Shown one piece after another: positions 724 to 48,300 of a stretch of DNA of 64,000 nucleotides (position 1 is the stretch's first letter; each line of letters opens with the position of its first letter). The position numbers and the translations under genes are program-made. A model generated the notes under the pieces. That model worked only from the letters and a program-made list of their open reading frames with translations, ran no database searches and was not told the origin of the DNA. This DNA comes from Promethearchaeota archaeon Loki_b32 (lineage in GTDB: Archaea > Asgardarchaeota > Lokiarchaeia > Sigyniarchaeales > SOKP01): NCBI GenBank assembly GCA_005223125.1, contig NJBH01000003.1, positions 124,001 to 188,000 of the forward strand, read 5' to 3'.

Positions 724-3700
724 ATGCAATCAGAAACTAGTAATAATTCACAAGAAAGGATTAGGAAAGCCACAGACCTACTTCAAAAGTCTTGGTGGTT
801 TTGTTTCTATCTTATTATTGCTCCATTGATTATTACATTATTAGTAATTATAATCTTTACTCAATCTGGAGTAAATTTATTCATTTCATTATCTTTTTCT
901 GTTTTAACTTTTATGTTTGCTTTCCTCTTTTTTTATAAGGTATATGACAAATATAGAAAAACTCCATTTTTCTTAAATAAAGAAAATAATCTTATAGCTA
1001 GAATCCAGATTTTGTTCCTAATTTCCATCTTATCTTTTATAGTAACCCCAATATTTTATTTAATTTCACCTCCAGGTACCTCTTTTGCTTTACTTCCTCT
1101 AATTAGCTATGCTGTTCTCTATAATATTGTATATTACTATTATTACTTCCAACCTATAGATTTTTTTAACTTAGAAGAAGGGACATTCAAACATACTGGA
1201 AATTTAAAATTAATGGTTAAGCAACCATATAACTTTACAATTTTTCTCAATTATTTAATTCATCTTATTTTTCTAGGTTTTACAGCCTTCACTGACTTTT
1301 CTTGGCTTTTTGGTCTTATTTCAAACTTAATTTTTTATTTCATCACAGTAAAAACTACCAAAGTTCAGGTTGATAAAATTAAAGCCCTTTTAAATGAAAA
1401 AAAGCCAATTTTAAAAGAATTAACTTCTTTTAAACAGAGTTTTGTATTATCTATAGTTAGCCTTCTTTTTATCATATTAATTCAAATGCCTTTTGTCATT
1501 ATCGTAATATTCAGTCTTTTGGGTGTTCAGTATTCGAGCTTAGAACTGATAAGCACCTCTTTTTTAACAATAATCTTTGTCCTATTTTATTTTAAATCTA
1601 GGTTTTATGTTAGTGTGTATTATACTTCGAAACTTAACCTGTTCGATATGCCTGAAAAAGTTGAAGATTCTGAAGTAAAATCTTCGCTAACACATATTAA
1701 GTATCAGAAACAGAATTCCTATGTATCCGGGATATTAATTCTATTAATAACAATATTCTCTTTTTTACTTGAGATTCCCCTATTAAACTTAATTATTCTT
1801 CCATTTCTATTTATTATCCTTCATTATGAACAAAAATCAGAACTCTGTCCTAAAGAGTATAATAGATTTGTGGTTATATTAAATACTATTGCACTTTTGA
1901 TAACTATCGCTTTTGGTATAATTCCAGTGATACTGGAAACCATCTTACTAAATTTCTTAGTATTTTCTCTTTCCTTGTATTTTATTTTGCAAGTATTTGT
2001 GAAATATGAGTATTTCATTAAAGAAGATATTCTCGTTTACCAAAATTTACTTGCTATGGCCAGTTTTGCATTAATATTATATTCATTCTTCCCGATAGCT
2101 ATATTTGAATATACTGCTTTTACATCAGATCCCCTAATCATTTTCGTTTCAAATTTTCTCTTACACTCATTACTAATTTCGATCACCTTCCTAATTTCAC
2201 TGTATATATTAGGTGTTCGATATTTTTATGCAAAGAGCCCTAAGTTATTCAGAAGGCTTATAGTAGGATTTAGTTTTTTAATTGAACTCGCAATTTTTAC
2301 TTTTATTAATTTTCGGTATTTTTTTGTGATGGACTTTATCAGATTTTTACTGGTAATTTGCATTTCATCTATTTTATTCCCAATTATCTTCTTAGTTTTT
2401 CTTTTAATAAATTATAGTTTAAACACATTTCCACTGGAATACTTCTTAAAATTAAGCTATATATCTTTTTGGATATTATTAGTTGATTTTTTCCTCTCTC
2501 TATTGGTCATATCTCTACTAAGCACTTATTTTATTATTATAATAATAATAGATTTCCTCATCTCATCTGTTTTTTATTATTATATCTTAAAGTTTGGACT
2601 GAAATTAGAAAGAGTGAATGAAGTCAAGTTTAAAAAGTACGTTAAAATCAATTCATATAGCATTACTATTGAGCTTTTATCTCTGTTTTTCATAATATTT
2701 TTTATAGCTTTTCAAGCTCTTTCGTTATTTGAAAATATAATTTATTCATTATATTTATCTTTGGCATTAGTTTGTTTATTAATCAATCTTTTTTCTAAGA
2801 AGGAAATCTTTTCTGAAGGGCTTTATTTCAAAATTAACACATTTATTCTTCTCTATAGCTCATTAATAGCATTCTATTACTTTTTGTTGCTCACTCTTGA
2901 TACTTTTTATGTGTTTATAATTCCTCTAATGGTTTTTAACATAATTTTTTACTTTCCTCTTTTATATCTTAGAAAAAAGAGTGTATTACAAATATTAACA
3001 TCTAAGTTATTGAAAATAAATAGTATACTATTCTCAGTGACATTATCATTAATTCCGACTATTAGAGGATTAGAACTCTACAATTTGGGCGAATTTTTTG
3101 ATATTATTTTCTTAATAATGACTGTGATAAACTTTACTCTATATATTGATTTTACAATTCTTACAATTTATTACTATATATCGAAGAAAATCAAAACCAA
3201 TGAAGAACGAGTAGGATTTTTCCAAAAAGTACAAGTGCTCATAACAATATGCATTGGTATTACAACAATATTCTATTATCCTTTTTTCTTGCTTATTGAT
3301 ACGCTCTATTGCGTAGTTTTACCTTCAATTTTTATGTTCTGCTTCCTTTATATTCCTCTTTATTATTCTTACAAGAGAGTGGCATTCAATATAGGATTTA
3401 TTAAAAGATTAATCCTTTTCAATACTTTAATTTTAACAGGGCTATTTACTTCAATTCCAACAATAATTAGCGTTAACTTAATTAATTTAGGATTTGTTTT
3501 TGATTTTAATAGTTTTGTGCTGAACACAATAAACTTTTCCACATACATATTCTATATTTTCTTATTAATCCTGAATAGTTTATTAAAAAAATTTGAGATA
3601 AAGCAAAAGTACATCCTTGTTTTAAATCGATTACGGTATATTACTATATTTAGCATTTCTATCACAACCATTTTCTTTTATCCCTTTTTATTACTCTATG

Positions 3701-6700
3701 GAACTTATTATAGTGTAATTGTACCTTTAATCGCATTACTATTTTCTTGGTTCTTTCTTTTCTATTATTCATATAAAAAAGAGTACTTCAACCTAGAATG
3801 GGTTAAAAGATTAACAATCTATAATTTTACAGGTTTATCTAGTTTAATTATATCTTTACCAACTATTATTGGTTTAGAATTAATCAGAATTGGATTTGAA
3901 GCGAACATAATTCTTATAACAACTATAACTCTAATCTTACTCTTTATTTTTTTTAAGATTTCTGAGATTATAAGTGTTAAAGTAAAATTAAAGGAGAATT
4001 ACATAAGATTTTTTAAATTATCTGAATTAGTTAGTTGGTTTCTATTCTCATTGCTTTTATCTTATTATATTGCTTCAATCTTTATTATTGAATTAGTGCT
4101 AACCCCTACAAATTTACTAATACTAAGTTGTTCCTTGTTTGTTTTTTTTATTTTAAGTGTTTATACATTAGTTCTGGTATCTTCTTCTATCCCAAAACTT
4201 TCAAACTTAATTAAGTATCAAGATATCATTATTTACGGAATAATTCTTTCGATATCATCTATATTTACTTTTTTAAGTCTTTCAACCAATCTTTTTGCTT
4301 TTATATTTCCAGGACTAGTATTATTAGAATCATCAATGCTTATTGGTTTTTTTGCAACTTTATTTCTCTTGTTTTTAATTCTGTGTGATAACTTTATAGA
4401 GTTTAAACTTACTCAGGTAAAGATTATCTGTGAGTTAACCACATGGCTGATTATAAAAATAATATTATGTATTTTCATTTCTTCTCTTATAGAAATTTTT
4501 GCATATCAATTTTTTATTATAAATAAAATATTTTTGTTTTCATTAATTTTCACATTTCTTACACCCATAAGTCTTTCACTATTAGAGAATTCGAGGTTTA
4601 TTTCAACAAAAAATAAATTTTTAATGAAAAAAATAACTGTAATTGCATTTGCGATTTTTTTACTAAGTTTATATATTGAAGTCCTATACATTTTAACATT
4701 ATCGATTCCTATCTTTTATCAAAATACATTATTACAAATCACATCTATTACAGCTAATCTGGTTATATTTGTATATTATTACTTTTTAAGGTTTAATGAA
4801 GTAACAGAAGAACCTTCTACTTCTAAAATATATAAGTTATATTTTTTATCATCGATATTATTCGTGTGTCTTCTTTATTCAAACTCAATTTTGATGATTT
4901 TTCTAATATTTTTCTCATATACAATTGTTCTATCGCAGAGAAGTATAATTCCCATTACACGATTTCTATTGTATTTTTTACTAAGTTTTGTTGCTTTCAT
5001 TGAAATTATTATAATTCTAAATTTTTATGAAGTTATAACTGGATTTGATATAGTGTTTGTTGGTATTTTCATAGATATTTATATTTTAACCACAATTTGT
5101 GTTTTGTTTTTCTCAATCTTGTTAAATATAAAGAAGAAGAATAATCTAGAAAAAATTGCTTTGTATGCGCTCATTTCTCTTTTAACCTTCTTTACTTTGA
5201 TGATCTTTACCAACATCTTAGTAATTTACAATATAACAATTTCAATTTTTGTATTTTTGCTATTCATGGGAATTTTCTTCTACCGTCAACAAGATGAGCG
5301 ATACAAATGGTTTACTAAACCCTGCGTAATTTTATTTATCTTTGATGCTATCAGCTTTATGTCATATTCTTGGCTTTTTAATAATCAAATTTTTAGGGCA
5401 TACAATCCTATCCTAACTTTTACTCTTACTATGAGTATAACAGGATTGGGATTTGTTCTTTTGTATAATTCTGCACCTGCACGATTTAGGAAGAAATCCT
5501 TCTATATTGTATTAGCTTCGATTGTTATCTCTTTTCCAACTTTTATATATTTCCTTATAATCTCTTCCTTATCTATGTCTTTTGGAGCTGTAGTCCCTTT
5601 AATAGTAGCAATTAATTTAGGAGTTTTTCTATTTTATCTTTGTATTGGAATTTATCAATGGAAAATATCATGGGCGATTTGGAAATCTGGATGGTATATT
5701 TGGAACATTCTACCCTTTGTTAACTTTTTAATCATCTATGAAAGTTTTACAGGGATAGATGTTTTTACTGATTCATTGCAATTTGGATTATATAACGTTC
5801 ATGGTTCATTAATTATATCGATAATAATATCCTCGTTATTCTTTTTACCAGTATTGTACACTAAAATAAAGAAATACTTTTTTCAAATCATATTTATTAT
5901 TTGGGGAGAAAGTTTATTCTTGCTCTATTGGCTTAGCTTAAACTTATTTGATTATGATCTTTTATTATTAAGGAATTTATCTTTTATTTTATTTTCAGTC
6001 ATTCTTTTGATGCCCCTATTTGCGGGATTTAAATATTGGAAAATTGTGTCAATTTTATGGCTATTATTAATACTCATTAATGCAACTTTTTTGTTATTTT
6101 ATTTATCATCAATTGGTATCATTATGGAAGTTACAATTTCAATTGACATCTTAGTTATAGGGTTATTTTTAATTGTCTATTCATTTTTCCCTAATATTAG
6201 GTCAATAGGGGTCGTTTTGATAACTGCGTATTTCATAACTTTATCAGGTATATTCTTTACAATTTATTTTATTCTCTATTCTATAATTTTAAATCCCTTA
6301 TTTTCTGTGAATATTAGTTTTATTGTAGTTGGATTTAGTCTTTTTTCCTCAAAATATATAAAATTATCAAAAAGAATTATAGATTTATGTCTCTCCTGGA
6401 TTCTAATTTTTAATTTCTCATGGCTGACTTTCAACACATTTAGCTTATTTCCAGGGTTAATTATATTTGCATTTTCTCTAGCTTTAACCGTTTTTGGATG
6501 CTCCTTTTTTATATTTAATCGTTATAAAATGAAAACTAATATTAATATTATAATTCCATACTCAATTATTACCATTGGAGCATCATTGTCAATAACTTCC
6601 CTAATTTCAATTATTTTCAAAGCATCACCAGGGGTTTTAGTTTCTACGTTTTCTTCAGTGTTTATTCTGTTTTTGTACTTTCTAATTAGGGAGTATCGAT

Positions 6701-9700
6701 ATGTATTGTGGTTTGGTTTTCCAATTCCTATAACATCACCGATATTAGAATTATTGTTAAGATTTGATGTTATCCAACCTTTTTGGTTTTTAACTTGGGC
6801 AATGTTATATCTCATTACATTTCAGATTTTAATTAATATGTTCAAAAATTATATAAAAGAAGACATACCAGATTCTATAGAAGAGGAAAAACCAGATTCT
6901 TCAAAAGAAGAAAAATTAGATTCTATAAAAGAGGAAACACGGAATTCTGTGAAGGAGGAAAATCCAGATTCTGTAAAAAATGAAAAACCAAAAACAAAAA
7001 ACAGCTTATTTAAGATTTATGAGGATAAAAATCAATTAAAATGGTTTAACTTTACATGTTTTCTATTAAATTCAATTTTTATTTCACTATTTATATCAAT
7101 CATTTTCCCATATTTAATTAAACAGATAATTTTTACTCAAATTCTATTAATTTACCAGATATGCGATTTTCTAATAATATGGTCAATATTATTTTTATTT
7201 TGTATAAAATATGTCGAAAAATCAGAATTAGATATAAAAATAAAGGACCAATTAATCTATTTCAATAAATTTAGTATTGTACTTTATATTTTAATTCCAT
7301 TGTCTTCAGGAATTAATCTTTTGCTTTATCTTTTTCTTATAAACACAGATTTTCTCATTTTAATTTATTCATTTTTATTATTAGGAAGTGGAATTGCTTT
7401 TATAGAGGGATACATAATTGATAGACGCCACTTTTATTTTCTGTTTGATTCAACACGAAATAAGTTTACATTGTGGTCATGGTTGGTTTTCAGTAATACA
7501 TTTGCACTCTTCTTTTATGTATTATATTCAAATATATTCTTCTTGGTATTAACAATTTCAATCTTAAATATTATCTCTGTTCATTTCTTATCTTATTTAG
7601 ATATTGGACAACCAAAAATTTCTACTTACCGATTAATTCTTATTTATAATTCATTCATTTGGAGTTCTTTTTATATAGCTTCTCTAATTTCAGAAGGATT
7701 ATTAATTCTTTTTGAAGGATTAAATGAATTCACTTATTATTCAATGTTATTTCAAAACTCTTTTCTATTCTTATATATTTTCAGTCATTTTTTCATTAAA
7801 TTTGAAAAAACTCTTAAAAATTGGGTTGAATTTACTCTTTTCATCACTTTCCAAGGATTACTAGCAATTAACCTGATCCTCATATTCACAATATTTACTC
7901 CCTTAAATTTTCTCATGGTAAATTTAATTATTTTAGTAGAAATATGTCTTACATTTAATCCTATTAAGTTATTTGACAAAATTTTGTCAGAACAAAAATA
8001 TCCGAACTTCTTGGATAAAATGTATTCGATTTTAGTCTTGTTCTTATACTGTGAAATAAGTCTAATGGTTTATGGGTTAACCTTTGAAGTTATTGGAGTA
8101 TTTGAGAGTATACTTTCTTCTCTATCGATATTATTAATTTTAACGTTATTTGATATTTATTCAATAAAAAAAATAAAGAGAAGCTATGCTACATTTGTTC
8201 ATACGATTAGTTTTTTTACGATCTCAATCATGCTACTTTTAATTTTAAATCAATTTGTAAATCAATATCCATTCTTATTCAGTTTGGAGTTTTTTATTTT
8301 TCTAATTATGCAATTCTACACGAATTTTTCTCTTTTTAATTCATTAAAATTATTTTACCAAAATAAAGTGGATGCTCTTGAAAAACTTCAAAGCTCAATT
8401 CAACGCATATTAGGGACTGCATTCTACGCTATGCTATGCTTTTTTATATTACAATCATTAATTTTACAACGGATTGAATTCCAATTGATCTTGTTGATTT
8501 TGAGCATCGTAATCCATGTGCTAATGATTATTGATAACTCTCTTTTAAAATTTATTGGAAAGGCTACTAGTTATGCAAAGTTAATATCCTGGATCTTTAT
8601 TATGACATTTACATCAACTTATCTAATCTGGATTTATAATACTTATTTTATATCATTCTTCTTTACAGTTATACCCATCGTTATTATTATTCTTATCCTT
8701 GAGCTCGCATATCTTTTTAGACTATTTTCTTTTTGGCAGTTAATTGCTTCAAATAAAGAAAAAATTCGATTTAATCTAATTCTTGTCTCTTATGTCAATT
8801 TTATTACATGGCCTTTGTATTTTTCTAGCTTAAATCCATTTCTTATTCTTAATCTATTTCTAGCTTCTTTTTTCATTATGTTATTAATTACTTTAATTGA
8901 TAATATTTTAAAAGAGAAATTCCGAAAACTTTTGAGATCCTACTCATTTCTAATGGTTGGGGGGTTAGTGTCCATTGATTTGTACATATTATTAGATACA
9001 ATTCCAAATTTCAATATTTTCCTAAATTTAAGCATATCATCTTTAATCTTTGTAATCTTCTTAATTATCTTAGTCAAACCATTTAAAGAGCATTCGGTTG
9101 TAGCATTCGTCTATTGGATTGTAACTTTCTTTTTACTGAGTTCAATTATTTATCATGTTTCATTAACTTTTATCTTTAGTGGTGTAATTTTTGGCTTATT
9201 GTTTTTAGCCTATCCATTTGTTTTCCTTTTGGAAGAATTAAGAGAGCTCTTTAATAAATTTATAGATATTATAGCTAAATTCTTTAAAAAACTCAAAACC
9301 CTAATTAAGACCATCTTTAATAAGATAGGCAATTTTATAAAAACTCATTTCAGATTAATTTGGGCAATTATCAATTTATTCATTTCAATATTCCTTGGTG
9401 TTCTTTTTTCACCCAACGAATATATTGGATTAAATTTATTAAATTGGATCCACTCCACACTTTTAATTTTTCCTCTTTTTGGCCTGCTATGCTCACTCAT
9501 ACCTTCTAAAAAGTCTGACGATGCCGATATTAGATTTAAACGTAGAATGTTTCGTTTAGTTATCAGTTGGGGAAGTATTATTATAGTGATGTTTGCTTTT
9601 ATAAACCCTGACTGGTATATATTTACTATTTGGATATCAATTTGGATTATAGGGGCCATTCTATTACCCTATATGATTTTTAAAGAAAAAAGAGAAAATA

Positions 9701-9804
9701 TTTCAATAAAATGGCGCTTTTATACACTCATTATATTAATATTCCTTCTTGTTTTATTTGGAATAATATTTGGGACACAAGTTTATGTGAATTTATTTTC
9801 TTAA
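724..9804 (+). CDS. Giant polytopic membrane protein of unknown function (about 3,026 aa)
   Basis: I do not recognise a family. Almost the whole protein consists of hydrophobic helices of Leu, Ile, Phe and Tyr separated by very short charged loops; by eye there are roughly 80-90 membrane segments. I prefer the ATG at 724 over the in-frame TTG at 712, because it begins a normal hydrophilic N-terminus (MQSETSNNSQERIRK) directly before the first helix. Three copies of an [IL]PTI-x-[GS]-[LV]-[EN]-L motif are spaced exactly 402 bp (134 residues) apart at 3052, 3454 and 3856, so at least the middle is made of tandem repeats of about four helices. The one long soluble loop is an acidic/basic repeat near residue 2050. 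A basic amphipathic helix (EELRELFNKFIDIIAKF and following) lies near the C-terminus. No signal peptide, enzymatic motif or nucleotide-binding site is visible. It stands alone, with its own promoter. Confidence 0.85.
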   Translation: MQSETSNNSQERIRKATDLLQKSWWFCFYLIIAPLIITLLVIIIFTQSGVNLFISLSFSVLTFMFAFLFFYKVYDKYRKTPFFLNKENNLIARIQILFLISILSFIVTPIFYLISPPGTSFALLPLISYAVLYNIVYYYYYFQPIDFFNLEEGTFKHTGNLKLMVKQPYNFTIFLNYLIHLIFLGFTAFTDFSWLFGLISNLIFYFITVKTTKVQVDKIKALLNEKKPILKELTSFKQSFVLSIVSLLFIILIQMPFVIIVIFSLLGVQYSSLELISTSFLTIIFVLFYFKSRFYVSVYYTSKLNLFDMPEKVEDSEVKSSLTHIKYQKQNSYVSGILILLITIFSFLLEIPLLNLIILPFLFIILHYEQKSELCPKEYNRFVVILNTIALLITIAFGIIPVILETILLNFLVFSLSLYFILQVFVKYEYFIKEDILVYQNLLAMASFALILYSFFPIAIFEYTAFTSDPLIIFVSNFLLHSLLISITFLISLYILGVRYFYAKSPKLFRRLIVGFSFLIELAIFTFINFRYFFVMDFIRFLLVICISSILFPIIFLVFLLINYSLNTFPLEYFLKLSYISFWILLVDFFLSLLVISLLSTYFIIIIIIDFLISSVFYYYILKFGLKLERVNEVKFKKYVKINSYSITIELLSLFFIIFFIAFQALSLFENIIYSLYLSLALVCLLINLFSKKEIFSEGLYFKINTFILLYSSLIAFYYFLLLTLDTFYVFIIPLMVFNIIFYFPLLYLRKKSVLQILTSKLLKINSILFSVTLSLIPTIRGLELYNLGEFFDIIFLIMTVINFTLYIDFTILTIYYYISKKIKTNEERVGFFQKVQVLITICIGITTIFYYPFFLLIDTLYCVVLPSIFMFCFLYIPLYYSYKRVAFNIGFIKRLILFNTLILTGLFTSIPTIISVNLINLGFVFDFNSFVLNTINFSTYIFYIFLLILNSLLKKFEIKQKYILVLNRLRYITIFSISITTIFFYPFLLLYGTYYSVIVPLIALLFSWFFLFYYSYKKEYFNLEWVKRLTIYNFTGLSSLIISLPTIIGLELIRIGFEANIILITTITLILLFIFFKISEIISVKVKLKENYIRFFKLSELVSWFLFSLLLSYYIASIFIIELVLTPTNLLILSCSLFVFFILSVYTLVLVSSSIPKLSNLIKYQDIIIYGIILSISSIFTFLSLSTNLFAFIFPGLVLLESSMLIGFFATLFLLFLILCDNFIEFKLTQVKIICELTTWLIIKIILCIFISSLIEIFAYQFFIINKIFLFSLIFTFLTPISLSLLENSRFISTKNKFLMKKITVIAFAIFLLSLYIEVLYILTLSIPIFYQNTLLQITSITANLVIFVYYYFLRFNEVTEEPSTSKIYKLYFLSSILFVCLLYSNSILMIFLIFFSYTIVLSQRSIIPITRFLLYFLLSFVAFIEIIIILNFYEVITGFDIVFVGIFIDIYILTTICVLFFSILLNIKKKNNLEKIALYALISLLTFFTLMIFTNILVIYNITISIFVFLLFMGIFFYRQQDERYKWFTKPCVILFIFDAISFMSYSWLFNNQIFRAYNPILTFTLTMSITGLGFVLLYNSAPARFRKKSFYIVLASIVISFPTFIYFLIISSLSMSFGAVVPLIVAINLGVFLFYLCIGIYQWKISWAIWKSGWYIWNILPFVNFLIIYESFTGIDVFTDSLQFGLYNVHGSLIISIIISSLFFLPVLYTKIKKYFFQIIFIIWGESLFLLYWLSLNLFDYDLLLLRNLSFILFSVILLMPLFAGFKYWKIVSILWLLLILINATFLLFYLSSIGIIMEVTISIDILVIGLFLIVYSFFPNIRSIGVVLITAYFITLSGIFFTIYFILYSIILNPLFSVNISFIVVGFSLFSSKYIKLSKRIIDLCLSWILIFNFSWLTFNTFSLFPGLIIFAFSLALTVFGCSFFIFNRYKMKTNINIIIPYSIITIGASLSITSLISIIFKASPGVLVSTFSSVFILFLYFLIREYRYVLWFGFPIPITSPILELLLRFDVIQPFWFLTWAMLYLITFQILINMFKNYIKEDIPDSIEEEKPDSSKEEKLDSIKEETRNSVKEENPDSVKNEKPKTKNSLFKIYEDKNQLKWFNFTCFLLNSIFISLFISIIFPYLIKQIIFTQILLIYQICDFLIIWSILFLFCIKYVEKSELDIKIKDQLIYFNKFSIVLYILIPLSSGINLLLYLFLINTDFLILIYSFLLLGSGIAFIEGYIIDRRHFYFLFDSTRNKFTLWSWLVFSNTFALFFYVLYSNIFFLVLTISILNIISVHFLSYLDIGQPKISTYRLILIYNSFIWSSFYIASLISEGLLILFEGLNEFTYYSMLFQNSFLFLYIFSHFFIKFEKTLKNWVEFTLFITFQGLLAINLILIFTIFTPLNFLMVNLIILVEICLTFNPIKLFDKILSEQKYPNFLDKMYSILVLFLYCEISLMVYGLTFEVIGVFESILSSLSILLILTLFDIYSIKKIKRSYATFVHTISFFTISIMLLLILNQFVNQYPFLFSLEFFIFLIMQFYTNFSLFNSLKLFYQNKVDALEKLQSSIQRILGTAFYAMLCFFILQSLILQRIEFQLILLILSIVIHVLMIIDNSLLKFIGKATSYAKLISWIFIMTFTSTYLIWIYNTYFISFFFTVIPIVIIILILELAYLFRLFSFWQLIASNKEKIRFNLILVSYVNFITWPLYFSSLNPFLILNLFLASFFIMLLITLIDNILKEKFRKLLRSYSFLMVGGLVSIDLYILLDTIPNFNIFLNLSISSLIFVIFLIILVKPFKEHSVVAFVYWIVTFFLLSSIIYHVSLTFIFSGVIFGLLFLAYPFVFLLEELRELFNKFIDIIAKFFKKLKTLIKTIFNKIGNFIKTHFRLIWAIINLFISIFLGVLFSPNEYIGLNLLNWIHSTLLIFPLFGLLCSLIPSKKSDDADIRFKRRMFRLVISWGSIIIVMFAFINPDWYIFTIWISIWIIGAILLPYMIFKEKRENISIKWRFYTLIILIFLLVLFGIIFGTQVYVNLFS
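2650..4260 (+). repeat. Tandem 134-residue membrane repeats inside the giant protein gene
   Basis: Protein-level repeats of 402 bp. The motif pairs LIPTIRGLELYNLG (3049 on), SIPTIISVNLINLGF (3451 on) and SLPTIIGLELIRIGF (3853 on) keep exact spacing. Each unit also carries a segment of the type GITTIFYYPF / SITTIFFYPF and a PLYYSYKR / FYYSYKKEYFN segment. Weaker matches continue one unit to either side (about 2650 and 4255). The DNA itself has diverged, so the duplication is old. Confidence 0.7.
6865..6984 (+). repeat. Five tandem 24-bp units coding a charged loop
   Basis: Five in-frame 24-bp units encode the octapeptides IPDSIEEE, KPDSSKEE, KLDSIKEE, TRNSVKEE and NPDSVKNE (residues about 2048-2087 from the ATG at 724). 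This is the only extended hydrophilic stretch in the middle of the giant membrane protein and splits it into a large N-terminal and a smaller C-terminal membrane block. Confidence 0.85.
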
Positions 9805-9989: not shown

Positions 9990-11429
9990 ATGGAAAAATT
10001 AGCAAAAAGAATAATAGCAATTGTTATTATTGCGGGTCTTGGTGTAGGAGGAGGATTAGGAGCTTGGTTTCTCTTTTTAGCACCAGGTGCTGGGGAATAC
10101 TCTTGGAGTTCCAAAGATTGTCCTGGAGCTCCATCAGGAATAAGTTCTGATCAAATAATTAAGTTTGGAATTACAGGTGATGTGGGTGAAATAACTGGAG
10201 ATGGTGCTTGGGAAGGGTGTTATCTTGCTGCAAAAGAAATAAATGAAGCAGGTGGTATTAAAATTAATGACACTACTTATTATATTGGGGTTACAAGGGA
10301 AGATAGTGATGAAGCTAATCCTAATTTAGTTACATCAAGAGGAATTGCTGCTGCAGAGAGATTAGTTTATAATAAAAAGGTTCAATTCGGTATTGGAGGT
10401 TTCAGATCAGAAGCATTATTGGCATATCAAGAAGTTTTCATGGATAATGAAATCATCTTTATTAATACTGGTGCTGCCACTGATGTTTTCTGTGAAAATG
10501 TTAGATCTTGGTATACGAGATACAAGTACTTCTGGAGATCCATGCCTATAAACTCATCTTCATTGGGTGAACAAATCTTTAATTATCTTTTTAGGTTGAT
10601 ATATGTTTTGAACGCGACATATTCTGGAGAAATTGCAAATGTTGGAATAATTTACGAAGATTTGACCTGGACAGAAGACTTGGTTACAGGGATTGAATAT
10701 TACTTTGGTCCTTATGGACCTTTGCCAGCATATAGAAATATGCTTACGGCAAATATCCCATATGATGTTACCTTAACTGCTGCAGACATGCTTACTCATG
10801 TGAATACACTCATGGCAGCTGACTGTGATATTGTAATACCCATAATATCCGCTCAAGGTGGACTCATGCTGATGCAACACTACGCCACTCTTCAACCAAA
10901 TTTTTTGGTCGTTGGTATTGATGTACAATCGCAGTTGGATACATTTTGGACGCAAACTAATGGAGATTGTATATACGAAATTCAGATGCAGAGCATACAC
11001 GTAACCAATAAGACTCCTACTACAATACCATTTTGGAACGCTTTTCGCGCTGAGTGGGGGCACGACCCACTTTATACAGCTTCAGGTTCTTATGATGCTT
11101 TAAACTTTATTGTATGGGCAATCAACGAAACTCAATCATTACAGGCATATCCAACCCTTACTCAAAAGATGGAGACAGCTACTAAAGCAAATATACTAGC
11201 AAATCCTGAACTATTCCCATCAAGTGTTGGTGGACTTGGGGCTTACTGGCCTACTACTCATGATCTTGTAGCAGGATATCCATTTGGGTTTACTCTATTT
11301 TGCCAATGGCAAGCAAACGCAACTAAAGTGATCATGCCATCATATAACTCTGTATACATTGATAGTCAACTTTCAAACATAGGAACATTGATATTACCAC
11401 CATGGCTTATTACAGATTGGACTACATAA
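9990..11429 (+). CDS. livK: Branched-chain amino acid type ABC transporter substrate-binding protein
   Basis: This is the extracellular receptor of an ABC importer of the Liv/HAAT family. Residues 8-31 form a glycine-rich hydrophobic segment after a basic start, giving an N-terminal signal/anchor. The remainder is a type 1 periplasmic-binding fold: FGITGDVGEITGDGAWEG begins the first beta-alpha unit, followed by AAKEINEAGGIKING-like and QFGIGGFRSEA segments typical of the receptor ligand-binding region. At 479 residues it is longer than bacterial LivK (about 370). The ligand cannot be read from sequence; amino acids are usual, but related receptors bind amides, urea or aromatic acids. It is the first gene of the set livKHMGF and is separated from livH by 215 bases, consistent with higher, separately ended expression of the receptor. 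Confidence 0.85.
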   Translation: MEKLAKRIIAIVIIAGLGVGGGLGAWFLFLAPGAGEYSWSSKDCPGAPSGISSDQIIKFGITGDVGEITGDGAWEGCYLAAKEINEAGGIKINDTTYYIGVTREDSDEANPNLVTSRGIAAAERLVYNKKVQFGIGGFRSEALLAYQEVFMDNEIIFINTGAATDVFCENVRSWYTRYKYFWRSMPINSSSLGEQIFNYLFRLIYVLNATYSGEIANVGIIYEDLTWTEDLVTGIEYYFGPYGPLPAYRNMLTANIPYDVTLTAADMLTHVNTLMAADCDIVIPIISAQGGLMLMQHYATLQPNFLVVGIDVQSQLDTFWTQTNGDCIYEIQMQSIHVTNKTPTTIPFWNAFRAEWGHDPLYTASGSYDALNFIVWAINETQSLQAYPTLTQKMETATKANILANPELFPSSVGGLGAYWPTTHDLVAGYPFGFTLFCQWQANATKVIMPSYNSVYIDSQLSNIGTLILPPWLITDWTT

Positions 11430-11644
11430 TTAAAGAAATGAAATTATAATTTAAATAATAAATATCATTTTTTTTTATATTTTACTAAAATAAAATTCCC
11501 TCTTAATTGTATTTTTTTTACTTCTTTAAATAAATTTGACAACATTTTTGTCTAGAAATAATCAAAAGGTTAGCTTTATAAAAAATGAGATAGAATTATA
11601 TTTATCAAATATAAAATAATGAACAATCACCAGAGTAAACAATT

Positions 11645-12535
11645 ATGATTGTAGATATAATGAATATGTTATTTAATGGCACCTTAACTGGTGCTGTATA
11701 TGCATTAATTGCTATGGGATACTCCTTAGTCTATGGTGTAGGAGGTATCATGAATTTATCTCATGGAGCATATTTTATGCTAACAGGGTATTTACTATTA
11801 TGGATGTTACAAACTCCATTTTTCATTGGTCTTGAATGGTTAACTGTTGTTTTTGCTTTAATTATAATAACGGTTATTGGAGGACTTACATTTTTACTCC
11901 TAGTAAAGCCTCTACAGGATTCCCATGTAGCTGTTGTTATTGTTACTTTTGGATTAGCGTTCTTGTTGGAACAAGTAGTATTAATTTCTCCCTCCGGAAC
12001 TGAAGTATGGTCTATTGGTCAATTACGATTGTTCCAAGGATATACGATGGTTTTCGGATATCCTATTGTTCATCAGTATGTTTTTCTCATCGTTATGTCA
12101 ATCGTAATTGTTTTATTATTTGCATTATTCATTAACAAATCCAAACTCGGGAAATCAATTAGAGCAGTCTCACAAGATCGTGAGGCTGCTGGACTTATGG
12201 GGATAAATGCTAGTAGAATTCTCTTATATACTGTTATGATTTCAGCACTTCTAGCAGGTTTAGCTGCTTTTCTGTATTTGCCAGGAGCTTCATTAGATGG
12301 CCCTTCTATGGGTTGGGGATATTTACTAAATTCATTTGCAGTTGTGATTCTAGGAGGGATGGGTAGTCTCATAGGAAGTGTAGCTGGAGCATTCATTGTT
12401 GGTTATACGATCAGTTTCACTAATGTCTTCGTTCCTTACGGTCCATCTTGGGCTCATTTGGTACCAATAATAATTATAATTGTAATACTTTTAATAAGAC
12501 CTCAAGGGTTATTTGGAAAGAAAGAACTTAGGTAA
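11645..12535 (+). CDS. livH: Branched-chain amino acid type ABC permease LivH
   Basis: Membrane permease of the Liv importer, 296 residues with about eight helices, the usual size. GIMNLSHGAYFMLTGYLLL near the N-terminus and the cytoplasmic SQDREAAGLMGIN loop (which docks the ATPase) are hallmark features of LivH; the C-terminal GGMGSLIGSVAGAF and LIRPQGLFGKKE ends are also typical. It lies 20 bases upstream of livM. The 215-base gap before it contains an AT-rich stretch with a TTTATAAAAAAT box around 11577, which may be an internal promoter. Confidence 0.92.
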   Translation: MIVDIMNMLFNGTLTGAVYALIAMGYSLVYGVGGIMNLSHGAYFMLTGYLLLWMLQTPFFIGLEWLTVVFALIIITVIGGLTFLLLVKPLQDSHVAVVIVTFGLAFLLEQVVLISPSGTEVWSIGQLRLFQGYTMVFGYPIVHQYVFLIVMSIVIVLLFALFINKSKLGKSIRAVSQDREAAGLMGINASRILLYTVMISALLAGLAAFLYLPGASLDGPSMGWGYLLNSFAVVILGGMGSLIGSVAGAFIVGYTISFTNVFVPYGPSWAHLVPIIIIIVILLIRPQGLFGKKELR

Positions 12536-12555
12536 TAGATGAAAATATTAATGAG

Positions 12556-13623
12556 ATGTATATAAAAATGTTAAATTTAAAAATAGTAAAGGAAAAAATG
12601 AATGAATTTCCAAGTTACTTAAAGTCTTGGGTTAAAACTTTCACTGGAAGCTTAACGATATTTTGTTTACTCATTCTTTTTGTCATGCCGTTTCTTTCTG
12701 CTAATCAAAGTTTTACACATGTGTTCCTGCGCCAATTTTCTCTTGCAATGATATTTGCAATTTTTGCCGCAAGTTGGGATCTTCTAACCGGCATCTCTGG
12801 ACAAATAAGTTTTGGGCATGCAATATTTTTTGGAATATCAGGATATATTTGTGCTTACTTAATTAAATATCAATCCTTCCCGATATGGATATCAATAATT
12901 ATTAGTACAGTTGTGGCAGTATTTTTTGGTTTAGCGATAGGATTTCCATTATTAAGGCTAAAAGGTCCATATCTAGCATTAGGAACTCTCGCAATGAGCT
13001 TAATTTTATTAAAATTATTTTTAATGGGTTCATTAGCAGATTGGCTTTTTGGTTCAGAAGGGATATCAGCGCTTCCGGGTTTGGCTGCAACCCCAGTGAT
13101 AGAATATTTTATATTATTTATTTTTATGATACTTACATTTGTAATTTTAATTCAAATATCAAAATCTAAATTTGGTACAATTCTAAAATCTATTAGAGAT
13201 GACGAGGTAGGATCTGATGCATCAGGAATTAATACAACTAAATATAAAATTTATGCTTTCATGTTAAGTTCTTTCTTCGCGGGACTTGCAGGTGGTTTCT
13301 ATGCTTTGTACATTGGAGCTGTAAATCCTACAGGAAATTTTGGTACCGTCCTTTCATTTTTCGCAATTCTAATGGCATCCTTAGGTGGATTAGCAACAAT
13401 TTCTGGAGCAGCTTTAGGAGCATTTTTCTTTATCTTTCTTGAATATGCCCTTATTGAGATTGGAGTTGTTGAGATTGGTAATCTTGCAATTGATTTTGGT
13501 CTTTACAAATTTGCAATATTCGCAGTAATTTTAATTGTTATTATTCGGTTTGCTGAGCATGGTATACTAAAACCATTGTTGGAACGTTTAAAAGATCTAT
13601 GGGATTTGTTGTTAGGAAGATAA
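12556..13623 (+). CDS. livM: Branched-chain amino acid type ABC permease LivM
   Basis: Second permease of the importer, 355 residues. The family signature GISGQISFGHAIFFGISGYI follows an N-terminal helix, and the ATPase-docking loop SIRDDEVGSDASGIN is present near residue 215. The last residues are charged and cytoplasmic. It forms a heterodimeric channel with LivH in the cytoplasmic membrane and is cotranscribed with it (20-base gap) and with livG (34-base gap with TAGGTGA upstream of livG). Confidence 0.92.
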   Translation: MYIKMLNLKIVKEKMNEFPSYLKSWVKTFTGSLTIFCLLILFVMPFLSANQSFTHVFLRQFSLAMIFAIFAASWDLLTGISGQISFGHAIFFGISGYICAYLIKYQSFPIWISIIISTVVAVFFGLAIGFPLLRLKGPYLALGTLAMSLILLKLFLMGSLADWLFGSEGISALPGLAATPVIEYFILFIFMILTFVILIQISKSKFGTILKSIRDDEVGSDASGINTTKYKIYAFMLSSFFAGLAGGFYALYIGAVNPTGNFGTVLSFFAILMASLGGLATISGAALGAFFFIFLEYALIEIGVVEIGNLAIDFGLYKFAIFAVILIVIIRFAEHGILKPLLERLKDLWDLLLGR

Positions 13624-13657
13624 AATATATAGGTGACTTTATCAGAGGGATTTAATT

Positions 13658-14398
13658 ATGGGTGTTATTTTAGAAGTTAAAAATTTAACTAAGAAATTTG
13701 GTGGCTTAACGGCTGTCAACGATTTCAGCTTTGAAATCAAACGAGGAGAATTTATAGGGTTAATTGGTCCAAATGGAGCTGGGAAAACCACAGTTTTTAA
13801 TTTAATTAGTGGATTTGAGAAACCAAGCTCTGGAAGAATTAGATTTAATGGAATTGATATTACTGGAATGAAACCTTATAAAATTGTAAATTTAGGAATT
13901 GCGCGGACTTTTCAATTAGTAAGATCGTTTAAATACTTAAGTTTGCTTGATAATATAACAGTATCGTGTCTCTCAAAAAGAGGTAAAGAGGTTTCAAAAA
14001 AAACAGGTACTGATAATTATGCAAGTTCAATTCTTGCTTCAGTTGGTCTTATTGATAAAGCTAGAATACCACCAATCATATTACCTCATGGAGACTTAAG
14101 AAAATTACAGATTGGTAAAGCTGTTGGTACTAATCCAGAATTACTTCTGCTTGATGAACCATTTAGTGGTCTTTCTTTCGAAGAACAATTAGGAATTACT
14201 GATTTGATAAAAAAATTGCATGCTGATGGTGTGACTATTTTTATTACAGGTCATGTTCTTCGTGAACTTATGACATTAGTACCAAGAGTAATAGCAATGC
14301 ATCAAGGTAAATTCATTGCTGATGGACCTCCGGTACAAGTTGCAAATAATAAAATTGTTCTTGAAGCATATTTAGGAAGAGGTGTAAAAATTGCTTGA
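13658..14398 (+). CDS. livG: ABC transporter ATP-binding protein LivG
   Basis: Cytoplasmic ATPase of the Liv importer, 246 residues. Visible motifs are Walker A GPNGAGKTT (near residue 36), Q-loop ARTFQLVR, Walker B ELLLLDEP and the switch histidine in FITGH. The family signature is unusual: the expected LAYGQQRRLEIA-like sequence reads LPHGDLRKLQIGKA, keeping only one glycine. The downstream partner LivF has a canonical signature, so the ATPase pair may be asymmetric. Its stop overlaps the TTG start of livF by eight bases, indicating translational coupling. Confidence 0.9.
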   Translation: MGVILEVKNLTKKFGGLTAVNDFSFEIKRGEFIGLIGPNGAGKTTVFNLISGFEKPSSGRIRFNGIDITGMKPYKIVNLGIARTFQLVRSFKYLSLLDNITVSCLSKRGKEVSKKTGTDNYASSILASVGLIDKARIPPIILPHGDLRKLQIGKAVGTNPELLLLDEPFSGLSFEEQLGITDLIKKLHADGVTIFITGHVLRELMTLVPRVIAMHQGKFIADGPPVQVANNKIVLEAYLGRGVKIA

Positions 14399-15095
14399 AA
14401 TAAAAAAAATTTATCATTACTATGGAAAAGCAAAAGCCCTTGAAGAAATTAGTTTAAAAATTGAGGAAAAGGCTCTCGATGCCGTTATCGGTCCAAATGG
14501 AGCTGGAAAATCTACCCTTCTCAGAGTTATATCTGGTTTAGAAGAACCAGATAGAGGAAAAATCGAATTCCTAGGTGAGAGGATAGATAAATTAAAAGCT
14601 CATAAAATAACAAAAAAAGGAATTTCTCATTGCCCAGAACGCCGTCGGCTGTTTTTTGATATGAGTGTTGCTGATAATCTCAAAATGGGAGCATACCCCG
14701 TAAAAAATAAGGAGGTGTATAAGGCGATGAAAAATTTTGTTTATGAACTATTCCCCCGATTAAACGAGAGACGAAAACAGCGAGCTGGAACACTAAGTGG
14801 TGGGGAGCAACAAATGCTTGCCATAGCACGTGCATTGATGTCAAAACCAAAACTTCTCTTGCTGGATGAACCCTCATTAGGATTAGCTCCAAAAATAAAG
14901 AAAAGAATATTTGACGTAATCGAAAAGATAAAACAAGAAGGTACGACCACCCTACTAGTAGAACAAGATGCAGTTTTAGCAATGGATATTGCTGAAAATA
15001 TTCATCTCCTCGAAGAAGGGAAAATAGAAATGAGAGGAACTAAGAAGGAATTGGAAAAAGAACCTCGAATAAAACAAGTTTATTTAGGAATTTAG
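14391..15095 (+). CDS. livF: ABC transporter ATP-binding protein LivF
   Basis: Second ATPase of the importer, 234 residues, the normal length. It has Walker A GPNGAGKST, a canonical signature LSGGEQQMLAIARAL, Walker B LLLLDEPSLGLAP and the switch histidine replaced in TLLVEQD, as is typical of LivF. The start is a TTG at 14391 lying inside the end of livG; the first residues LEIKKIYHYYGKAKALEE begin the standard LivF N-terminus, so no earlier start is needed. The stop is ten bases before the next ATG. Confidence 0.92.
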   Translation: MLEIKKIYHYYGKAKALEEISLKIEEKALDAVIGPNGAGKSTLLRVISGLEEPDRGKIEFLGERIDKLKAHKITKKGISHCPERRRLFFDMSVADNLKMGAYPVKNKEVYKAMKNFVYELFPRLNERRKQRAGTLSGGEQQMLAIARALMSKPKLLLLDEPSLGLAPKIKKRIFDVIEKIKQEGTTTLLVEQDAVLAMDIAENIHLLEEGKIEMRGTKKELEKEPRIKQVYLGI

Positions 15096-31435: not shown

Positions 31436-31984
31436 CTAAGTTTTCTCTGCTTTCGTCTTAGCTTCCTCCTTAATTCTCTCAACTCCCTTCGTAGCTTTCT
31501 CAGCCCTCTTCTTAGCGCCCTCAGCAACCTTCTTAGTTTTCTCTGCTTTCCGCTTAGCTTTCTCAGCTGCCTTCTCAGCTGCCTTCTCAGCTTTCTCAGT
31601 TGCCTTCTCAGCTTTCTCAGCTACCGTCTTAGCTACCTTTTCAGCTTTCTCAGTTTCCTTCTCAATATCCTTACTTTTTTTAACTACTTTCTCAGATACA
31701 TCCTTAGCTTTTATCTCAGCTTTCTCAGCAACCATCCTAGCTTTCTCAGCTACTTTCTCAGCTCTCTCAGCAATCATTTTAGTTTCCTCAGCTGCCTCAG
31801 ATCCTATTCGAGATTTTTTAGCGACTCTTAGTGTTTCCATTTCATATCTCGTATAATCCTCATTTGTTGCCTTCCTTATAGTCTTTACACCACATTTTTC
31901 ACAATATTCTGTTACTGTAGTTGTAAATTCTCCACATTCATCACAGACAAATTTAAATGTCTTTTTAAATGTTTTCATGTCCAA
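31436..31984 (-). CDS. Zinc-ribbon protein with Lys/Ala/Glu-rich helical repeat tail
   Basis: A 182-residue protein. The N-terminus has a zinc ribbon (C14-DEC-17 and C28-EKC-31). From about residue 60 the sequence is a long charged helix of near-repeats AEKAEK, EKAAEK and AKRKAEK, which gives the DNA a run of CTCAGCTTTCTC-like units. Such tails resemble histone H1-like or LEA-like proteins and may bind nucleic acid or form a stalk; this is inference. An alternative start is the ATG two codons later. It stands alone. Confidence 0.7.
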   Translation of the reverse strand: MDMKTFKKTFKFVCDECGEFTTTVTEYCEKCGVKTIRKATNEDYTRYEMETLRVAKKSRIGSEAAEETKMIAERAEKVAEKARMVAEKAEIKAKDVSEKVVKKSKDIEKETEKAEKVAKTVAEKAEKATEKAEKAAEKAAEKAKRKAEKTKKVAEGAKKRAEKATKGVERIKEEAKTKAEKT

Positions 31985-45180: not shown

Positions 45181-45303
45181 TTGCTTAAATATTTATTTTC
45201 GTTAAATGATTTTTAAATTATAACTAAATTATTATATAAATTTGTATTGAGATTTTTGTTTAATAAGTTCATTCTTAATTCTTCTTAAAAATAGGTGAAA
45301 TTT

Positions 45304-48300
45304 ATGGAAGAGAAAAGAGAAGAAGATTTAGATCAAGAATTCGATGATGAGGAGTTAGATTTAACGAAGGATGCTTTTTTTGCCGATATGATAGAGATGG
45401 AGGAAGAGATTGCTACAGAAGCCTATGAGTTAGTGGAACATGCGCTTAATTTAATAACGTCGCATTATTATGATGATGGCATTGAAATTCTTCGTCAGGC
45501 TATAGGACTATATACCCAGATAAATAGAGAAGATGAAATTAAAGCTATAAATGAAAAAATATCAGAGGTTTACATACTAAAAGAACAAGCATTCAGGGAA
45601 GTTGAAATTGAAGCAGATAAAGTAGTTGAAAAGTTTGAGGAAATTGAAGAAGTTGAGGTTACTGAAGAAGTTGGAAAGATTGAAGAAGTTGGACGGGCTG
45701 AAGATTTGGAAGTAGAGGTAGATTTGATTAAGAAAGCAGACCAATTAGTAGTTGAAGCCCATCAATTAACAAAAAATAACAGATTTGAGGAATCTCTTGA
45801 TAAATATGATGAAGCGGAAAAAATTCTTGAAGAGTTAGGTAAAACAGATGAAGTCGAAAGATTATATTCATTAATTGAAGATTGTTATAATAAAAAGGCT
45901 GACTTCTTACGGAGCGTTAAGAAAGAAGAACTAGAAGAGGAACTAGTGGTTAGTGAAGAATTAGAAGCGCCACGAAGTGAGGAGCAGTTAAAAGCTAAAA
46001 GATTAAAAAAGTTTCTTGAAACAAAAAAGCATGAGGAAGAGATCTCCTCTAGGGCGTATGAAGTATTAGACAAAGCGGTAGAGTTAGCTAAATTACATGA
46101 ATATGATCAAGCTTTGAGTTTATATGAAGAAGGAGCAAATTTGTTTAAAGAATTGAACTGGACTTATGAAACCAAGAAAATTAGGGATACAATAGAGCAA
46201 TTAGAAAAAGAAAAATTTAGGCATTTTCAAGCTCTTGAAAAAGAAAAAGTACAAATTGAGCAAAAAATTGAAACTGAACTTCAAAAAGAAAAACTAATTG
46301 ATCAGCAGGTAAAAGAAATAGAGGAGAAGAAAAAACTTACTCAGATGGAAAGGATAAGAGGAATAGAATTTCAAAAAATGGAAACCGAATTCTTCAAAGT
46401 ACAAATTGATAATATGGTAACTGAAGCTGCTAGAATGGCACGCGAATATGAATTGGCAATGCAGAAAGCTATAAAAAAAGGAAGATTAGTAGAAGAATGT
46501 ATTTATCCTAAAGTTATTGAAATTTATAAAAAAGTAAAGGAATTACTTATTGATAAAGGTTGGAATAATGAAGCAGCTATTTATGATGATACAATAAAAG
46601 TTTATATTCAGAAATTTGAAAAGGATCAAAAGGTAAGACAAATCGAAGCTGAAAAGACTATAAAACAGAAAGAAGCGGAAGAATTGATTAAGTTTAAAAA
46701 AGAAGATGTAGAAGCGGAATTGAGCGAAGAGCAATTAAGAGCTAGAGAAAAACACCGTCAAGGGGAAATAGAAATACAAAATATTCGAAATAGCATAGAA
46801 GAAATGACAAAAAGAGCCGAACGAGTAGGAAGAGAGTATGAAGTAGCGTTAAGGAAAGGGAAATTTGAATTAAAATGTCCATACCCTGAAATTATCAATA
46901 TCTATGAAAAAGCCAAAGAAATGGCACAAGAAAGAGGATGGGATACAGATGTAGCAATTTTCTTAAGTCAGATTAACAAATTTAAAGAAAAATTAGAGAA
47001 AGACAAAAGATTACGACAAATAGAAGCTGAAAAGGCAAAAAAGCAAGAAGAAGTAGAAGAAATGCATAAAGTTAAAAAAGAAGAACTTGGAGTAGGTTTA
47101 AATGCTGAGAAGCTCAAATTATTAGAGGAACAAAGAAGATTAGAAGAAGAAAAAGAAGATTTTGATGAAATTTTAAATACAATGATAAATCGAGCCGAAA
47201 AAATGGCTCGGGAATATGATGTTGCTATGAAAAAAGCCATAAGAAAGGGGGAATTGGCAGAAAACCCTCCATTTTTAAAGATTATTAGTATTTATGAAAG
47301 AGTAATACGAATGTTACTTGATAAAGGAAGAAATGAAGAAGCTGCCACATATGGAAATCAAATAACTTTTTACAATCAAAAATTAGAAAAAGATAATAAA
47401 TTAAGAGAAGTTGAGGCGCAAAAAGCCCAAAGAGAAAAAGCACTTGAAGATATGCACAAAGTAGGAAAAAAAGTCGAAATTGATCAAAAAAAATTAAGCA
47501 CTGTTGAGAAAAAAAGAGAAGAAAAAGAATTTCAGAAATACATTATCAATATGGCCAATAAAGCAGAAAAATTAGAGAGAGAATTTGATTCATCAATGAA
47601 AAAAGCTGTAAAAAAAGGGGGTGTAATAGAACAAACACCATATTCCGAAATAATAGAAATATATAAGCAAATTAAAGACAATTTATATGAGAGAGGCTGG
47701 ATAGAACAATCACAAATTTATTCAAACCAAATAAAGATTTATCAAGAGAAATCAGAGAAACATGAAAAATTACTAAAAATTGAAGCTCAAAAAATTCAAA
47801 GAGAAAAGGAGTTTGGAGAATTACAAAAAGTAGGTAAAAAAGAAATTAAACCTGCTAAACCTGAAAAAATAAAAGAACTTGAAACTGAAGACAAAGAAGA
47901 AGATATATTTTTAGATAAAGCAATGAACCTGATTGATGAAGCTGAAAAAGATGTTAGAAGCTATGAACTAAGTATCAAAAAAGATATTTTGGTATATGAG
48001 AGTCCTTATATTAAAGCAATTTCTAATTATGAAGAAGCTAGAGAATTATTCAAAAAAATAGGATGGAATGATGAAGCTAACAGATTAATTAAAACTATTA
48101 AATTTTATAAGGATAAAAAAGAAAAAGATGATAAATTAAGAATAATTGAACAAAAGAAATTAGAGAAACCAGAAATTAAATTGGAAGCGGTTAAGACTGA
48201 AACTGAAAAAGAATTTTTAAAAAGGCAGGAGAGGTTGGCAGAATTTGAAGAAAAACAGAAGGAAGCTGATGAGATTGCTGTAAAGATCTTCAGTATGATT

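Follow-up and report, generated by a model that had tools for sequence, protein, structure and literature searches.

Membrane-shaping proteins of the Reticulon/Yop1 type consist of two hairpins, oligomerise, and carry an amphipathic helix at the inner surface of the membrane. Soluble alpha-solenoids of the HEAT/TPR type (e.g., Kap121, Ctr9) are stacks of antiparallel helix pairs that are lengthened by duplication. Piezo has been described as the membrane protein with the highest number of transmembrane (TM) passes; each chain has 38 TM helices and nine 4-helix units, besides a pore and an outer cap (PMC9256749). The protein of interest here, a giant of 3,026 aa, is encoded in a 64,000-nucleotide stretch of Lokiarchaeia DNA (the window), and resembles each of these systems in part. 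Like Piezo, it has very many TM helices in one chain of similar length, and repeated 4-helix units beside a presumed functional centre; it differs in the number of predicted helices (~93–127 in its family), in having almost no outer parts, in the mid-chain position of its core, and in being archaeal. With the HEAT/TPR proteins it shares a chain of helix pairs, presumably stacked, and lengthening by duplication, but those proteins are water-soluble and unrelated in sequence, whereas the helices of the giant are predicted to span the membrane with strict inside/outside alternation. Reticulon/Yop1 proteins, compared with no claim of homology, share the membrane hairpins and the inner amphipathic helix, while the giant has ~46 predicted hairpins in one chain. 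To our knowledge, the ~90 predicted membrane crossings of this single chain are far above those of any protein known.

The giant gene, its parts and its immediate neighbours occupy the following window positions (residues are those of the giant):

1–497, + strand: neighbour, end of a family-4 glycosidase (GH4) gene (Pfam Glyco_hydro_4C, E 6e-30; synteny)
724–9804, + strand: coding sequence of the giant polytopic membrane protein, 3,026 aa, ~93 predicted TM helices (intact frame, TM count, charge alternation, orthologues, dN/dS)
724–1662, + strand: N-module, residues 1–313, 8 TM helices (topology; separate gene in several relatives)
1663–5175, + strand: repeat arm 1, residues 314–1484, length varies between species (occupancy and identity per block; repeats)
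2872–4026, + strand: three tandem 134-aa, 4-TM units, residues 717–850, 851–984 and 985–1101 (phmmer, profile-profile comparison, TM count)
3850–4830, + strand: first copy of an older internal duplication, residues 1043–1369 (hhalign)
5176–6813, + strand: conserved core, residues 1485–2030, common to the 3.5–4.3 kaa relatives (alignments, block conservation)
5680–6192, + strand: Trp-rich heart of the core, residues 1653–1823 (alignment of 21 sequences; topology)
6844–7050, + strand: hydrophilic linker, predicted cytoplasmic, residues 2041–2109, with degenerate 16-aa repeats (tandem repeats at 6848–6992; topology)
7051–9231, + strand: repeat arm 2, residues 2110–2836 (gain and loss of repeat-sized blocks in relatives)
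7288–8178, + strand: second copy of the older duplication, residues 2189–2485, in arm 2 (hhalign)
9232–9354, + strand: amphipathic helix at the predicted cytoplasmic interface, residues 2837–2877 (hydrophobic moment, model, family consensus)
9355–9804, + strand: conserved C-terminal TM module, residues 2878–3026 (consensus, block conservation)
9990–15095, + strand: neighbour, branched-chain-type ABC importer (Peripla_BP_6, then LivH, LivM, LivG, LivF; Pfam, sequence reading, synteny)

The coding sequence is a single intact frame from an ATG at 724 to a stop at 9804, as described in a first-pass annotation of this DNA, which had reported a 9.1-kb uninterrupted frame of about 3,026 residues coding almost only for membrane helices. 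An alternative in-frame TTG at 712 would give 3,030 aa; the ATG is the start position aligned by most orthologues. Leu, Ile and Phe make up 46% of residues, and the mean Kyte-Doolittle hydropathy is +1.08. Comparison with orthologous genes gives a dN/dS of ~0.17–0.33 (NG86; 2,534–3,288 codons), which indicates purifying selection over about 2,500–3,300 codons. This, together with orthologues in dozens of independent genomes, almost always in single copy, marks the frame as a real, conserved gene on sequence evidence. The opposite reading, in which the gene is decaying, the open frame arose by chance in AT-rich DNA or faulty assembly created it, can point to rearranged copies in two single-contig relatives. 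Nevertheless, we give it a negligible chance: the copies in dozens of genomes are full-length or colinear, start and synteny are conserved, and the low dN/dS is that of a maintained gene, such that for the family as a whole the sequence comparisons have already refuted it. The two rearranged copies may be real deletions or assembly errors. In one (L030:7319–10453), residues 1–808 are fused to the end of a pyridine-nucleotide oxidoreductase; the other (L025:6560–10591) consists of the second half only, and adjoins an LVIVD-repeat protein.

The number of helices was estimated by (i) charge-blind segmentation of the alignment-averaged hydropathy profile, giving 85–91 helices, and (ii) a topology-aware model that uses charge, giving 89–93 helices with the N-terminus inside; roughly 80–90 had been counted by eye. 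When run on single sequences of other window proteins, the helix scorer returns 7–8 helices for LivH, 10 for LivM and 0–2 for soluble neighbours, indicating that it is not grossly inflated. The successive loops of the charge-blind segmentation alternate in charge, with a statistic of 354 versus 241 ± 16 for shuffled loops (20,000 shuffles, maximum 300). In the topology-aware model, ~197 Lys and Arg residues fall inside and 3–4 outside, a split that is partly forced by the model's use of charge, while the shuffle-tested alternation of charge-blind loops is not. The predicted outer side amounts to ~200 residues spread over 47 loops, of which only four reach 8 residues and the longest has 13; the giant thus has no predicted outer domain. 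The very short loops of the first-pass annotation hold in general, but not at the linker (~2041–2109), the amphipathic stretch (2837–2877) and a few inner loops of 30–46 residues. The prediction supports a chain of ~46 helical hairpins, whose outer turns are tiny and whose inner loops carry positive charge.

The core is the most conserved part of the giant. Residues 1501–1900 are 43–48% identical even in distant members, and 16 positions (Trp, Pro, Asn, Gly, Ser and Phe) are invariant among 21 sequences that include the 3.5–4.3 kaa relatives. Those invariant in 21/21 within the Trp-rich heart are W1653, W1660, P1664, N1667, G1694, S1695, P1709, W1727, W1736, P1764, W1772, W1779 and P1823, and the 13-aa outer loop, the longest predicted, also falls here. 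The earlier statement that the protein carries no recognisable motif is correct for known families (see below), but passes over a strongly conserved Trp/Pro/Asn/Gly core, which argues against a featureless packing protein; neither this core nor the internal repeats appeared in that sequence-only note. Downstream of the core, the linker is partly encoded by 24/48-bp tandem repeats (bases 6848–6992), and in L048 the chain is split into two ORFs near it. The twelve highest hydrophobic-moment windows of the whole giant all lie within the conserved stretch 2837–2877. At the other end, the N-module is a separate gene in several relatives, mostly of genus g2, and often overlaps the next gene by 4–44 bp. 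In one genome, an N-module loop that should face the cytoplasm by prediction contains an inserted zinc ribbon (CSKCG..CPNCG; L043:12122–13174).

Sequence comparison of the arms indicates that they lengthen through tandem duplication of units with 4, 6 or 8 helices. The three 134-aa units of arm 1 match each other with phmmer E-values down to 3e-18 and a profile-profile E-value of 4e-35. An older duplication links residues 1043–1369 with residues 2189–2485, with an hhalign score of up to 55 versus a maximum of 26.7 in 250 reversed-window controls; profile scores on hydrophobic sequence need such controls, and long reversed alignments can also score well. A whole-chain, single-sequence BLAST of the giant against itself returned no repeats, while phmmer on segments and profile comparison did detect them. 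Relatives have tandem duplications of their own, of 121, 128, 134, 179–184 and 252–276 aa. In all nine of the duplicated units sampled, the predicted number of helices is even (4, 6 or 8), meaning that the chain can lengthen without inverting the topology of the remainder.

Orthologues of the giant were found in 33 of 58 relatives by protein search, and in 59 of 228 Asgard genomes by a search with the core profile. All of the latter lie within the window's order, almost always with one copy per genome, and a search of a named genome collection matched only Candidatus Lokiarchaeota/Lokiarchaeia genomes. Orthologues from the Asgard genomes range from 2.5 to 4.3 kaa, so that related genomes do contain homologues as long as the window protein. 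Full-length orthologues of families f1 and f4 have ~2,520–3,330 aa and 75% to 22% chain identity to the window protein; in the shortest of these, the N-module is carried by a separate gene. Family f2 orthologues are longer (3,508–4,296 aa), with cores 22–27% identical to that of the window protein and with longer arms. Although the arms vary in length, the N-module, core and C-module keep their order in these 3.5–4.3 kaa relatives as well, as befits a single orthologous family. Across the family, about 80–127 passes per chain are predicted, more than double Piezo's 38, and such a chain raises questions as to its insertion, its folding and its job. Several fairly complete genomes of the window's own family have no recognisable giant; it is either dispensable in places or diverged beyond recognition, and is not essential to all Lokiarchaeia. 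A 1,041-aa membrane ORF with weak similarity to the N-module (L139:123–3248, – strand), possibly a paralogue or a fragment, occurs in a genome (G046) that also carries a 3,938-aa giant.

The N-module profile also weakly matches a 2.1-kaa membrane ORF (L138) in another Asgard class. Relatives of L138, of 2.0–2.3 kaa, occur in family f8 of that class (loci L138 and L143–L152; matches in 15 genomes), and have 63–77 predicted TM helices with the same charge and topology pattern as the Loki giant. Similarity between the two sets was seen only over the first ~60–110 residues, with HMMER E-values of 7e-7 and 5.7e-5 for the two search directions, and none with reversed sequences; for the remainder, profile-profile comparison did not rise above reversed controls. 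The f8 giants are thus probably distant relatives of the Loki family. Full-length hhalign of Loki against f8 giants was dropped as proof of homology, because reversed controls score equally high. The relevance to Asgard archaea proposed at first pass is borne out to the extent that the family occurs only in the window's Lokiarchaeia order, with a probable distant relative in a second Asgard class. Many f8 loci have a divergent gene of ~165 aa directly adjacent, with a zinc ribbon in both of those tested (L138, L150).

Two parts of the giant were modelled with AlphaFold2: residues 850–2048 (alignment of 41 orthologues; pLDDT 79) and residues 2085–3026 (39 orthologues; pLDDT 83). Both models are almost entirely helical, with good local confidence and a pTM of 0.47, at which the overall shape is not fixed. 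Their helices broadly match the topology model, and the Trp-rich heart is the least confident region. Foldseek searches of the PDB with the two models gave no match at E ≤ 0.001; the best, non-significant neighbours are mostly soluble alpha-solenoids of the HEAT/TPR type, with TM-scores near 0.1, and subunits of transporters or respiratory complexes match sporadically at E > 1 only. These models suggest a local geometry of stacked hairpins that no known membrane fold accounts for. At the level of sequence, a whole-chain hmmscan against Pfam-A (E ≤ 1) reported only DUF2730, at E 0.03 and under its cut-off, and searches of Pfam, NCBIfam and PDB sequences with the giant family gave nothing above chance. 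Pfam searches with 27 core members gave no match, and those with part B gave chance-level matches only. A lone match of part B to PDB entry 8k9e_F, a quinol:cytochrome c oxidoreductase subunit (E 0.005, 18 bits, 93 positions), was judged to be chance; a possible resemblance between the core motif and DUF5684-type motifs was dropped as there was no Pfam match. Thus, no link to a transporter or glycosyltransferase family, which would have spoken against the first-pass interpretation, emerged from Pfam, NCBIfam, PDB sequences or Foldseek on the predicted models. A search of a limited literature collection found no described giant polytopic protein of Asgard archaea. We rate the giant as a new protein family and architecture that fits no described family, with a function that is hypothetical.

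No constant gene partner accompanies the giant across the loci examined, which is easier to reconcile with a structural protein acting alone than with a subunit. In genera g1, g2 and g3, a GH4 gene adjoins it at most loci, a link that fails in other genera. The ABC importer, whose Peripla_BP_6 protein was assigned by Pfam and whose Liv gene names were read from sequence, adjoins it in genus g1 only, and a functional link between giant and importer was downgraded for this reason. Neighbours elsewhere include sensor kinases and zinc-ribbon, WD40, LRR and DUF4838/GH67-like genes. In family f4 (L049:3154–5241 and L051:12563–14785), a DUF4838/GH67-like glycosidase gene is divergent from the giant, with a zinc-ribbon WD40 protein on the opposite side; an alpha-amylase gene lies near the giant in another family. 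In three genomes of one f2 genus, an SPFH/flotillin gene lies directly upstream of the giant (L099:16965–18188, L100:12961–14202, L140:3710–4933). Proteins of the SPFH/flotillin class are known for scaffolding membrane domains.

The reading that we favour, tentatively and with real room for another, is that the giant is a hairpin solenoid embedded in the membrane, which it would scaffold, bend or sense. In this arrangement, ~46 antiparallel helix pairs would be lined up next to each other within the cytoplasmic membrane, and hardly any of the chain would protrude from the cell. The Trp-rich core would sit between the two repeat arms, and the ends would be formed by the 8-helix N-module and by the C-module with its long amphipathic helix on the inner surface. 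The role would most likely be mechanical: as a large scaffold within the membrane, the giant could set the local thickness or curvature or, alternatively, could sense tension and pass it to the core or to cytoplasmic partners. We infer the side-by-side stacking and the mechanical role from (i) the charge alternation, the missing outer domain, the even-helix units, and the variable arms between fixed modules, and (ii) the all-helical models, their solenoid-like Foldseek neighbours, the amphipathic inner-surface stretch, purifying selection and the SPFH/flotillin neighbour. Counting against it are the pTM of 0.47, the TM-scores of ~0.1, the lack of a constant partner, and the absence of the giant from several genomes of the same family. 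The membrane-structuring or membrane-packing role first proposed fits the anatomy, but stays conjectural. A bolder version, which we regard as speculative and rather unlikely, is a transmembrane alpha-solenoid in which dozens of hairpins stack in the bilayer as one extended ribbon; this ribbon would bend or stiffen the membrane, whose tension it would report via its mid-chain core. It would be the first architecture of this kind, occurring in two Asgard classes and with a length that duplication can adjust.

The main rival is that the giant is a transporter, flippase or channel, in which the core (1485–2030) moves a substrate—perhaps a lipid, an isoprenoid-linked sugar or an ion—and the arms only support it. 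The higher conservation of the core compared with the arms, with invariant Trp, Pro, Asn, Gly and Ser in the core, is as this reading would have it, and conserved polar core residues (N1667, D1679, S1695) could equally serve transport or catalysis; the adjoining GH4 genes and ABC importer also lend themselves to it. However, these neighbours are not conserved outside some genera, no transporter family or fold was matched, and we know of no transporter that needs at least 70 extra helices. On balance, transport is unlikely, while deserving serious attention. If instead the glycosidase genes nearby (GH4, DUF4838/GH67-like, alpha-amylase) are taken as the guide, the giant might be an enzyme of the membrane, for instance a GT-C glycosyltransferase or a polysaccharide machine. 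In GT-C enzymes, a large outer loop holds an acidic motif, while the giant's predicted outer loops have at most 13 residues; with no family match either, a role of this type is very improbable.

A special case, with less support, is tension gating as in Piezo, where arms of 4-helix units would curve the membrane and control the opening of a core pore. The 4-helix repeat units, conserved centre and amphipathic inner-surface helix of the giant resemble Piezo's nine 4-helix units and pore (PMC9256749). The 4-TM tandem units are present in the giant, and a pTM of 0.47 speaks neither for nor against a blade shape. Yet Pfam finds no Piezo model in the full chain (only DUF2730, as above), Piezo is absent among the listed Foldseek matches of both models, and an outer cap, which in Piezo lies between two C-terminal pore helices, is impossible with such short predicted outer loops. 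Furthermore, the core lies mid-chain in the giant versus a C-terminal pore in Piezo. We hold Piezo-like gating to be improbable: Piezo is the nearest system in its arm-plus-core logic, but the giant is not a Piezo.

A role in shaping or sensing membranes would bear on how Lokiarchaeal cells form, and on the origin of complex cell architecture, Lokiarchaea being relatives of the ancestors of complex cells. Cultured Lokiarchaeia are bounded by a single membrane and bear protrusions that are extensive and branched (PMC9834061). Since a 4,296-aa copy is located in a single-contig genome and Lokiarchaeia are in culture, proteomics and imaging are feasible in principle.

Elsewhere in the window, a 182-aa ORF at 31436–31984 (– strand) lies over stacked 21-, 54- and 96-bp tandem repeats, and looks from its sequence like a low-complexity repeat protein. 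Further downstream, positions 45295–49866 (+ strand) hold a 1,523-aa ORF.
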